From NCBI RefSeq assembly GCF_030680935.1, contig NZ_JAUXUP010000030.1, forward strand, positions 1 to 64,000: a stretch of DNA of 64,000 nucleotides, given 5' to 3'. Source of the stretch: Polaromonas sp. GTDB taxonomy: Bacteria > Pseudomonadota > Gammaproteobacteria > Burkholderiales > Burkholderiaceae_C. A program made the position numbers and the translations under genes. The notes beneath the pieces were generated by a model. That model was not told where the DNA came from. It saw nothing but the letters and a program-made list of their open reading frames with translations, and ran no database searches. The first letter of the stretch is position 1, and each line of letters opens with the position of its first letter. Shown piece after piece: positions 44,078 to 46,655 of the stretch.

Positions 44078-45124
44078 ATGAAGCAAGCCATCTACACCCG
44101 CGGAGCGGCGCTCCCAGCCGTACTTGAACAGCGCATCGCCATTCTTGACGGCGCGATGGGCACCATGATCCAGCGTTTCAAACTGAACGAGGTGCAGTAC
44201 CGCGGCGAGCGTTTCAAGGATTTCCACAAGGACGTCAAGGGCAACAACGAGCTTCTGAGCCTGACGCGCCCCGATGTGATTCAGGACATCCACGAGGGGT
44301 ATCTGGCCGCCGGCGCCGACATGATTGAGACCAACACCTTCGGCGCGACCACCGTGGCCCAGGCCGACTACGACATGGCCGAGCTGGCCATCGAGATGAA
44401 TTACGAATCCGCCCGTATCGCGCGCGCCGCGTGCGACAAATTTTCGACGCCCGACAAACCGAGGTTTGTTGTGGGCGCCCTGGGCCCCACGCCCAAAACC
44501 GCCAGCATCAGCCCCGATGTCAACGACCCCGGCGCGCGCAACACGAGTTTTGAGGAGCTGCGCAAGGCCTATTACGAGCAGACCGAAGCCCTGGTCAGGG
44601 GCGGCGCCGACGTGCTGCTGGTCGAGACGATTTTTGACACGCTCAACGCCAAGGCCGCGCTGTTTGCGATTGACGAGTATTTCGACAACAGTGGCGAGCG
44701 GCTGCCGCTGATCATCAGCGGCACCGTGACCGACGCCTCGGGCCGCATCCTGAGCGGCCAGACCGTCACCGCCTTCTGGCACAGCATTCGCCACGCGCAG
44801 CCGCTGGCCGTGGGGCTGAACTGCGCGCTCGGCGCGGCGCTGATGCGCCCCTACATCCAGGAGCTGGCGCGCGTGGCGGGCGACACCTTCATCAGCTGCT
44901 ACCCCAACGCCGGCCTGCCCAACCCGATGAGCGACACCGGCTTTGACGAAACGCCGGACGTGACCTCCCGGCTTGTGCGCGAGTTTGCGGCTGAAGGGCT
45001 GGTCAACATCGTGGGTGGCTGCTGCGGCACGACGCCGGAGCACATTGGCGCGATTCATGACGCCGTCAAGCCTTTGGCGCCGCGCGGGATTCAGCGCGGA
45101 TTCTTTTACAAGGAAGCTGCCTGA
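44078..45124 (+). CDS. metH: Methionine synthase, homocysteine-binding domain (split MetH, N-terminal protein)
   Basis: This 348-residue protein is the N-terminal homocysteine S-methyltransferase domain of cobalamin-dependent methionine synthase. It starts [17 protein letters not shown] and has zinc ligands C249 (GLNCALGA) and C315, C316 ([10 protein letters not shown]). Full MetH has about 1200 residues with folate, cobalamin and reactivation domains; these are absent here. Split MetH pairs are known in Burkholderiales. The partner is not in the flanking gene: a nested palindrome and a convergent gene follow. Confidence 0.88.
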
Positions 45125-45129
45125 GGGGC

Positions 45130-45575
45130 TGTCATCCGGGGCTTGAGCCCCCATGGCACCAGGTTAAGCCTCGACGGCATGATGCCGCCGACGAGACGCG
45201 CTGGCGGGATCGGGCCGGCAGGGCACTCTGCGCAGCGAATGTCCCCCGGCCCGGGAAGGGCCTCCTCCTTTATTTCGCTGCGCAGAGTGCCCAACCGCCC
45301 CGATCAGTCACTGCCGTGGCTGCCGAGGTGTCGAAAACCACGGCCCGTCCCCGGGACAGGGATGCCGGATGGCCGCAGTGGCGAAATAAAGGAGGAGGCG
45401 CCCTCCCGGCGCCGGGGGACATTCGCTGCTGCGGTCATCCGGCGTCCATACCCCGCGCGAAACCTTCCGCCCGCGACGCGAGCAAAGCGACCTGAAATGA
45501 TCCGCCGCTCCGGGGCACAACATGCGCCGTCTAGGCTTAACCATCGTGCCATGGGGGATCAGGCCCGAGATGACA
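45130..45575. repeat. 446-bp nested palindromic element
   Basis: Outer arms 45130-45178 and 45526-45575 are about 50-bp imperfect inverted repeats. Inside are two hairpin modules in opposite orientation: module A (45221-45292) with perfect 19-bp arms GGGCACTCTGCGCAGCGAA and its complement; module B (45361-45446) with 25-bp arms. The loops of A and B are nearly complementary (TGTCCCCCGGC / GCCGGGGGACA; CCTCCTCCTTTAT / ATAAAGGAGGAGG). No protein gene is evident. It exactly fills the convergent gap between metH and the co-chaperone gene. It may be a MITE-like repeat, a structured RNA, or both. Confidence 0.8.
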
Positions 45576-45585
45576 AAGCAGGTCG

Positions 45586-46485
45586 TCAGCTCAATACAAC
45601 ACTGCTCAACCGCCGCCGGTAAGTAGCCACGACAGGATCATTCGGCGGAATCTGCCCGTCAGCGACCTTGACTTTGGGTGGCTCGATGATTTCGAGGATG
45701 GACACAAAGGTCTTGCGCGCCAGCTCCTCGTTCCACGACTTGTCGCGCATCAATATCTCCAGCAACTCGTCCATCGCTGCCACCCACTGTAGTTGGCTCA
45801 TGTGCAACTGCGCCAGGGCGTAACGCGTTTCGAAATCACGCTTGTTGGTCAGAAGTTTGGCATCAAATCCGGCTTTAGCCGCCGCTACATCTGCGTGACC
45901 AGCTCCTGATTCAATAGCATTGAACCAGTGTTGCAAGGCTTCGAACTTGCGTACCAGAGGCACTTTCGGCAACGCGGGCGCAAACGCCGCCTTCGCATGG
46001 TCGAGCTGGCCGTGTTGCAGCAGCCGCCGCACATAGTCGAACAGCGCGCCGTCGTTGGACGGGTCGTTGGCGACGGCAGCCTTGAGTTTTTCCAGCACGG
46101 CGGCGGGGCTGGTGTCTTCGGGCTCCGGCTTGGCCTCTTCAGGCGGCGGCAGTTCTTCGGCTGGCGGCAGGTGTTTGTCGAGGAATTCCTTGACCTTGCC
46201 TTCGGGCAGCGCACCCTGGAAACCATCGACCGGCTGGCCGTTGACCATCAGGATGCAGGTCGGAATGCTCTTGATGCCAAAAGCGGCGCCCAGTTGCTGC
46301 TCCTGGTCTGAATCGATCTTGACCAGTTTGAAGCGCCCGCCGTAAGCCACTTCAACTTTCTCGAGGATGGGCCCGAGTGATTTACAGGGTCCACACCAGG
46401 GCGCCCAGAAATCAATCAGCACGGGGATGGTCATGGAAGCCGTTATGACTTCCTCTTCAAAATTGGCAATGGTGACGTCGATCAT
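45586..46485 (-). CDS. Thioredoxin/TPR co-chaperone (CnoX/YbbN-like)
   Basis: This 299-residue protein starts at ATG 46485. It has an N-terminal thioredoxin domain with the WCGPC-type active site (C31, C34), a Pro/Glu-rich linker (about 107-128) and C-terminal TPR-like helices (about 130-290). CnoX/YbbN binds GroEL and protects substrates from oxidation. Unlike E. coli CnoX (active site SQHC), both cysteines are present, as in other CnoX homologues. A segment at 45860-45920 (FNAIESGAGHADVAAAKAGF) is formed from a family 2 repeat. Confidence 0.85.
   Translation of the reverse strand: MIDVTIANFEEEVITASMTIPVLIDFWAPWCGPCKSLGPILEKVEVAYGGRFKLVKIDSDQEQQLGAAFGIKSIPTCILMVNGQPVDGFQGALPEGKVKEFLDKHLPPAEELPPPEEAKPEPEDTSPAAVLEKLKAAVANDPSNDGALFDYVRRLLQHGQLDHAKAAFAPALPKVPLVRKFEALQHWFNAIESGAGHADVAAAKAGFDAKLLTNKRDFETRYALAQLHMSQLQWVAAMDELLEILMRDKSWNEELARKTFVSILEIIEPPKVKVADGQIPPNDPVVATYRRRLSSVVLS
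45860..45920. repeat. Dispersed repeat (family 2) inside coding sequence, copy f
   Basis: Read on the minus strand, this part of the CnoX-like gene has GCTATTGAATCAGGAGCTGG, CACGCA, and GGCTAAAGCCGGATTTGATG. Aligned without gaps against copy e it agrees at about 37 of 58 positions. The open frame continues through it. Confidence 0.65.
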
Positions 46486-46655
46486 GGTGCTGGACAAATA
46501 GGGGTGGGTGAGGCAATTTTCAACAGGCGCAGAGCGCGCTGCGCTGGCACGATAGCACGCGGCGGCCGGGGCGGGCAGCGTCACCGCCTTGAGCAGCCCG
46601 TAAAATCACCGCTGACACCGAACGATTGACGGCACAGCCGGCCCGGAAGGCAAAC

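Follow-up and report, generated by a model that had tools for sequence, protein, structure and literature searches.

What is the nested palindromic sequence that fills the spacer between two convergent genes of Polaromonas sp., and in which form does it work? The window, that is the whole 64,000-nucleotide stretch of DNA analysed here, has on the left of this spacer a metH-like gene on the plus strand (44078–45124) that encodes a 348-aa homocysteine S-methyltransferase domain protein (PF02574, E 5.2e-95). On the right, a minus-strand gene at 45586–46491, with its stop end at 45586, encodes a protein with a thioredoxin domain and TPR (PF00085, 2.4e-25; PF14561, 2.9e-18). The region between them folds much better than its dinucleotide shuffles, with z-scores of −12.4 for plus-strand RNA, −10.8 for minus-strand RNA and −11.0 for plus-strand DNA. 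A 159-aa ORF with a TTG start spans the element (45143–45622, plus strand) and is probably spurious, because it passes through the palindromes. The initial annotation of this sequence offered a structured RNA, a terminator downstream of metH or a repeat mobilised by a Rep-like transposase.

The locus probably consists of two unrelated nested repeat types and not of one element. The core of the inner element is formed by two hairpin modules of about 98 nt in divergent orientation, both found where they had been annotated. Module A (45208–45305) has its sense on the minus strand; its 32-bp stem is built from the arms 45274–45305 and 45208–45239, which are 91% complementary, and encloses a core at 45240–45270 with the order AAGGAGGAG, hairpin, CGGGGGACA. 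The 3′ tag CGGGGGACA of this module lies at 45240–45248 and reads TGTCCCCCG on the plus strand. Module B (45354–45453) has its sense on the plus strand, with 32-bp stem arms at 45354–45385 and 45422–45453 around a core of the same order at 45389–45421, where the 5′ tag AAGGAGGAG occupies 45389–45397 and the 3′ tag CGGGGGACA 45413–45421. The sequence AAAGGAGGAGG, earlier pointed out in loop B, is located at 45388–45398. A spacer of 48 bp (45306–45353) separates the modules and the core-to-core gap is 118 bp. Since the two modules are inverted relatives, their loops are complementary to each other. The long-range loop–loop pairing that had been proposed as an alternative fold is not conserved: only 2 of 78 module pairs have identical inner hairpins, which rules out a conserved switch between A and B.

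The wobble pairs of module B were the starting point for the idea of RNA pairing. The 25-bp stem 45361–45385/45422–45446 has exactly four non-Watson–Crick positions (pairs 6, 7, 14 and 23 from the core) and all of them are G–T or T–G on the plus strand, just as annotated. The rule holds within these 25 bp but not in the 7 bp beyond them, by which the stem common to the family reaches 32 bp: here pairs 27, 29 and 30 are G–A, C–A and A–C, and thus two mismatches of the A–C type run counter to it. The plus strand is the correct reading for module B but not for module A, whose sense lies on the minus strand. Read in this sense, the mismatches of module A within 32 bp are T–T, T–G and G–G at pairs 20, 21 and 25, the T–G being the sole one of transition type. 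The sense strand is fixed by each module and not by the plus strand of the window.

A nucleotide search with the element gave weak relatives on two other contigs of its own genome; the same query had matches in 26 of 87 genomes of the genus and in 118 of 399 genomes of the family, own genome included. These loci share a unit that, read in sense, starts with one stem arm and three bases, continues with AAGGAGGAG, a small variable hairpin and CGGGGGACA, and closes with the second arm. When the tag pair itself was used as a pattern, AAGGAGGAG-N(5–35)-GGGGACA was present in 169 of the 399 host-family genomes sampled, and a single genome had up to 91 matches (46 forward and 45 reverse in genome G368), while the same pattern read backwards gave 4 matches in all in the same 399 genomes. 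The genome-wide copy search suggested in the initial annotation has thus revealed a dispersed family. The own genome contains 8 tag-pair matches at 5 places. Among the matches listed (80 of at least 120 matching stretches in a contig scan for named records) there are records of Variovorax, Rhodoferax, Hydrogenophaga, Ramlibacter, Acidovorax, Curvibacter and Rubrivivax. Three Variovorax plasmid records carry tag matches, and no copies were found in the phage sequences searched. In addition, stems were checked in 12 records from other groups. There are 23–30 Watson–Crick pairs out of 32 in the records of Thermomonas (two), Luteimonas, Sulfurisoma, a Lysobacteraceae bin and an Oxalobacteraceae strain. 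The records of Stenotrophomonas and Bacillus subtilis, with 15–16, are ambiguous, and the matches from Bacteroidales, Actinomycetospora and Verrucomicrobia, which look like chance, have 6–9. A Longimicrobiales match was not recovered with a stricter pattern. In the open-access literature, to which our search was confined, no account of the tag-pair repeat family was among the matches listed.

The doublet seen in the window is the usual arrangement. Neighbouring modules are divergent in 103 of 115 pairs, with 73 modules solo, and the core-to-core gap is 103–135 bp in 85 of the 103 divergent pairs; the pair counts are drawn from overlapping loci and some sites may be counted twice. Genome G368 is more uniform: it has 39 intact pairs, every one with a gap of exactly 119 bp, besides another pair that an insertion sequence has split and 11 modules without a partner. 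The unit dispersed in this genome is about 260–270 bp long and most copies are bounded by GTTCAGGGC and GCCCTGAAC. The flanks of the G368 elements (L286–L335) often have further GTTC..GGCGC-like stretches, and GTTC/GAAC ends like those of these elements recall the targets of rolling-circle IS91-type elements.

How far the stem extends was determined on 184 nonredundant modules, obtained by k-mer filtering from exact-tag modules with at least 20 of 32 Watson–Crick pairs (251 of 276). Watson–Crick pairing is 71–95% at stem positions 10–31 and then drops sharply, to 62, 48 and 32% at positions 32–34 and to 26–39% over positions 34–39; the filter inflates the paired percentage and has no effect on the choice between G–T and A–C. 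Below the threshold of 20 pairs are 25 of the 276 tag-found modules, and in 10 of the 40 loci L214–L253 a tag-bearing module has fewer than 15 of 32 stem pairs; with the stem offset fixed at 3 nt, modules with an indel are scored as weak. Close to the core the stem occurs in variants that keep Watson–Crick pairing (GCGAA/TTCGC, GCGGC/GCCGC, GCGAC/GTCGC) and in variants with G–A mismatches between Watson–Crick pairs (GCGAA/TGAGC, GTGAG/CGAAC), all read from overlapping loci with possible double counting of sites.

Covariation analysis, also suggested in the initial annotation, demonstrates that the letters of the stem vary and the pairing is kept. A MAFFT alignment of 36 modules with 27-nt cores, from which 7 gap-shifted rows were dropped, left 29 modules with a covariation score of 0.668, compared to 0.202 for shuffled and 0.070–0.115 for slid alignments, and with changes on both sides in 28 of 36 pairs. 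The larger set of 184 modules has 1815 double-change Watson–Crick cells (shuffled mean 471, maximum 525). It had been expected that stems of other copies would show G–U rather than A–C changes. This is what we see: sense-strand stem mismatches of the 184 modules are G–T in 343 and A–C in 51 cases, and the bias is reversed at the flanking positions 35–42 (116 G–T versus 224 A–C). The sense strand is the more stable one in 178 of 184 modules with RNA parameters and in 180 of 184 with DNA parameters. Selection for the fold of one strand is the simplest reading of the covariation and the G–T bias; strand-biased mutation in exposed single strands could add to the G–T excess.

The tags are invariant in the 184-module set by construction, because this set was gathered by exact tags. 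Tag conservation was re-measured, allowing up to 2 substitutions, in similarity-found loci that had been fetched with a tag-bearing query: of 65 nonredundant modules, 55 have AAGGAGGAG exactly and the other 10 with 1–2 substitutions, and 57 of the 65 have GGGGGACA exactly. Over all loci (203 nonredundant modules) the combination of base 5 in AAGGAGGAG with base 3 in GGGGGACA is A/G in 183, G/A in 12 and another one in 8 modules. The joint change has a Fisher value of 2e-14, with kinship not corrected for, and no other pair of tag positions in the 203 modules has four or more joint changes. Since one base in each tag changes together with one in the other, it is probable that the two tags touch each other. 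A swap from A–G to G–A is expected of two bases in purine–purine contact, and it thus hints at such a contact.

Between the tags lies the inner hairpin. After 7 weak hairpins of the 184 were set aside, the loops of the 177 clear ones are C(GNA)G in 94 cases, C(GNNA)G in 16, GNRA in 4 (a class that overlaps GNNA) and UNCG in none. PMC4686876 describes GNA and GNNA loops closed by G–C pairs as extraordinarily stable DNA minihairpins. Similar modules of G368 alternate between GGGGCGCAGCCCC, GGGCGAAGCCC, CCCGAAGGG, GGCGAAGCC and CCGAAGG as inner hairpin, with a constant GNA loop strand. The majority of C(GNA)G and the small number of RNA-type GNRA loops lead us to favour single-stranded DNA, rather than RNA or a terminator, as the working form. 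Against the DNA reading counts that G–T and G–A pairs occur in RNA too and that RNA parameters also favour the sense strand. The original argument from wobble to RNA is therefore only half retained: strand-specific wobble holds for the whole family, but it does not single out RNA, and the loop types point to DNA.

Dispersal is seen most clearly in G368, where 27 distinct elements are alike, most of them up to the same ends, beyond which the flanks diverge. For two G368 sites, relatives among the matches listed have orthologous spacers without the element, G299 at both sites and G207 at site 2. At site 1 the aligned flanks are 53 bp apart in G299 and 370 bp in G368; at site 2 the distance is 92 bp in G299 against 314 bp in G368, and 26 bp in G207 against 321 bp in G368. 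At site 1, G207 has 604 bp of other sequence without tags. Neither a target duplication nor an exact junction was definable at these two orthologous sites in G299 and G207, because the orthologous spacers are too diverged. A dispersed family with sites filled in one genome and empty in relatives supports, in kind, the option of a mobilised repeat. As for the site of the window, four relatives among the matches listed have adjacent metH and thioredoxin genes (G001, G010, G057 and G060) and none of the four has the module; the spacer is 22 bp in G057 and about 155 bp in G060. In G001 (L257:2015–2552) and G010 (L265:2014–2663) the spacer is occupied by different, repeat-like sequence that includes a single GTCATCC-type repeat; in G010 this sequence forms one long palindrome. 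The metH–thioredoxin site may be a hot spot for palindromes.

One module of G368 (contig C55; L316, about 693–2194) is interrupted just before AAGGAGGAG by an IS110-family insertion sequence (PF02371, 1.4e-25) with the ends GGGACTTCTCGC/GCGAGAAGTCCC. This suggests that an IS110-type element targets the modules; specific insertion of IS elements into REPs has been reported (PMC1525189). Placement was assessed for 114 elements, 28 of them from one genome, with gene orientation taken from a home-made codon score; 17 elements could not be placed and 4 were inside gene calls. The 93 placed elements are found between tandem (61), convergent (28) and divergent (4) genes, whereas 105 background spacers are divided into 74, 10 and 21 (Fisher 0.0003 and 0.001, kinship not corrected for). 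The same spacer preference is described for REPs in PMC3733652.

The outer inverted arms of about 50 bp are present as annotated, at 45130–45178 (plus strand) and, as the inverted partner, at 45526–45575 (minus strand), and are 86% complementary. They are not a family feature. With an outer-arm score of 35.5 the element of the window is the only far outlier among the 86 elements outside G368; the next scores are 22, which stems from a neighbouring module, and 16.5. Scores above the 95th percentile of mismatched controls were obtained for 9 of the 86, where about 4 are expected, and among the 28 G368 elements none exceeded the control at 40 or 150 nt and one did at 80 nt. The arms start with TGTCATC and hold TTGA-like loops, their stems are decayed, and the left arm resembles a decayed CGTC/TGTC-type REP (TGTCATCC..TTGA..ATGG). 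According to section 6 of PMC3733652, CGTC REPs have a TGTC/CGTC tag, an AT-initial stem of 8–9 bp, a TTGA-like loop of 4–5 nt and a CCA tail; the hosts reported for them are mainly alphaproteobacterial (Di Nocera 2013). The own genome contains 12 copies of a CGTC-type REP within 3 mismatches (reversed control 0), and the outer arms of the window are not among them. The REP GTCATCCCGGACTTGATCCGGGATCCA and its near variants are dispersed over these 12 places. The outer arms are likely to represent a pair of CGTC-type REPs that has decayed, with an origin separate from that of the inner modules.

The inner modules belong to a family with a common architecture and a conserved sense-strand fold, dispersed and present or absent at orthologous sites. 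We think it likely that the inner element (about 45208–45453) is a non-autonomous REPIN-like mobile repeat, the folded sense single strand of which is recognised by an enzyme as DNA, the outer arms being probably a separate CGTC-type REP pair. Such a repeat could move in the following way. A DNA strand turns single-stranded, for example on the lagging-strand template, and exactly one module would then be in sense form; this would be true for either strand because the two modules are inverted. The fold of the sense module would be a 32-bp stem that encloses a very stable small hairpin with a conserved purine tag on either side, AAGGAGGAG and CGGGGGACA. A DNA-processing enzyme, HuH-type or a similar single-strand nuclease, would recognise the tags and the shape, not the stem sequence, and would move the doublet into spacers behind genes. 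Single-stranded DNA as the active form, a nuclease of this kind and replication as the process exposing the strand are what we infer.

Sites recognised as a folded single strand, with the stem sequence free and the structure kept, are known from integrons (attC). The modules share the free stem sequence and the kept structure with attC sites; the conserved letters of attC are at the stem base, whereas those of the modules adjoin the loop. Closer is the likeness to REPINs and GTAG REP doublets (RAYT/TnpA-REP). A REPIN is an inverted REP doublet with a predicted hairpin in single-stranded DNA or mRNA (PMC3116915), and GTAG REPs are defined, in PMC6006769 and PMC3686654, by a GT[AG]G tetranucleotide 5′ of the hairpin. 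The inverted hairpin doublet, a tag at the foot (GGAG in the modules), intergenic dispersal with few copies in divergent promoter spacers, and one copy hit by an IS110-type insertion sequence are common to both. Unlike them, the modules are without the GT[AG]G tag and carry two tags, are about 98 nt long with a 32-bp stem whose sequence is free, where the REP is short and its sequence fixed, and have no flanking RAYT gene at the 31 Y1 loci seen. CGTC REPs are likewise dispersed palindromes for which section 16 of PMC3733652 gives no known dedicated transposase, and the outer arms resemble them, but the inner modules have neither the CGTC/TGTC tag nor the short 8–9 bp stem. We tentatively entertain a more far-reaching reading, namely a separate class of mobile single-stranded DNA element that would be defined by its shape and by two purine tags in contact, AAGGAGGAG and CGGGGGACA flanking a GNA minihairpin within a 32-bp stem of free sequence. 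It would be moved by a non-RAYT enzyme, with stems and inner hairpins being rewritten and pairing and loop kept.

It is rather doubtful that the repeat derives, in the manner of a MITE, from an IS200/IS605-type or RAYT-linked element and that a RAYT or TIRYT of the genome moves it in trans via GGGGACA. The only Y1 match of the own genome (PF01797, RAYT-like; L065:1138–1870, contig C20) has GGGGACA on both sides, in favour of this reading, and is otherwise unlike the modules. Section 16 of PMC3733652 gives GGGGWSAS as shared by the terminal inverted repeats of some RAYT genes, which is similar to the GGGGACA-type motif of the modules; however, 115 of 184 modules continue after GGGGACA with a T, which GGGGWSAS does not allow, and the 69 that fit have C or G. 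Where terminal inverted repeats were visible at the 22 Y1 loci inspected for them, they are GGGGTCAGATC-like or others, and several of the Y1 loci scanned have GGGGACA. These TIRYT repeats adjoin the Y1 gene, and the terminal repeats and motifs found beside RAYT genes (GGGGTCAGATC, AATTGGGGACATAT and others) have neither AAGGAGGAG nor the conserved long stem of 32 bp. Scanning about 1.5 kb around 31 Y1 loci (some overlapping; 19 genomes) revealed none flanked by a module, and the two matches obtained, at the overlapping loci L106 and L123, do not represent the motif. Y1 genes occur in 18 of 20 higher-copy and in 41 of 55 zero-copy genomes, hand-picked from the tag-pattern counts (Fisher 0.21), and G106 and G426, with 17 and 19 tag matches, are without one. 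With no flanking modules and no significant presence/absence association, a RAYT as linked mobiliser was rejected, and no link between the element and the Rep-like (Y1) transposase of the initial annotation could be established. When ORFs in the vicinity of modules were clustered, the 25 largest clusters looked by eye like ordinary or spurious genes, with no obvious transposase among them, and the one gene-bearing element examined was the IS110 insertion; we therefore rejected the idea that the elements carry a gene or have one as a regular neighbour.

That the modules act as a structured RNA is unlikely. Folded in read-through transcripts of the convergent genes, they would act as a 3′ stabiliser of mRNA, as a regulator or as a processing site, and the inversion of the pair would let this work in either direction, a scheme consistent with the sense-strand G–U preference, the stability with RNA parameters, the location behind genes and the enrichment between convergent genes. 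The inner loops, mainly C(GNA)G, nevertheless argue against it, and the two modules, with opposite sense strands, cannot both be sense in one transcript. In addition, a dispersed repeat absent at orthologous sites is not a conserved part of a host gene. Rfam had no match above the gathering score in the window, and the 14 matches of a permissive search were all under it, 12 of them to microRNA families, which rules out a known RNA family as the identity of the element. A bidirectional transcription terminator between the convergent genes is highly improbable: the convergent location and four consensus terminator-like sites in 45050–45650, against 0.3 in shuffles (one at 45080–45099 on the plus strand inside the metH-like ORF and three on the minus strand at 45344–45360 and 45390–45407), are in its favour, but TTTT follows within 14 nt of the stem in 1 of 184 modules, so that the proposed terminator downstream of metH is poorly supported, 61 of the 93 placed elements are between tandem genes, and an intrinsic terminator has no need of conserved purine tags inside a 32-bp stem.

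The mobile repeat folding as single-stranded DNA is therefore the reading that we prefer. Our results add a large palindrome family to environmental bacteria such as Variovorax, Rhodoferax, Hydrogenophaga and their relatives, with tags that differ from those of the GTAG and CGTC superfamilies described earlier. The covariation is direct evidence that a particular strand retains its ability to fold, and the type of loop speaks for this strand being DNA. What maintains palindromic repeats in bacteria is an old question, and the foldability of the sense strand makes it testable.
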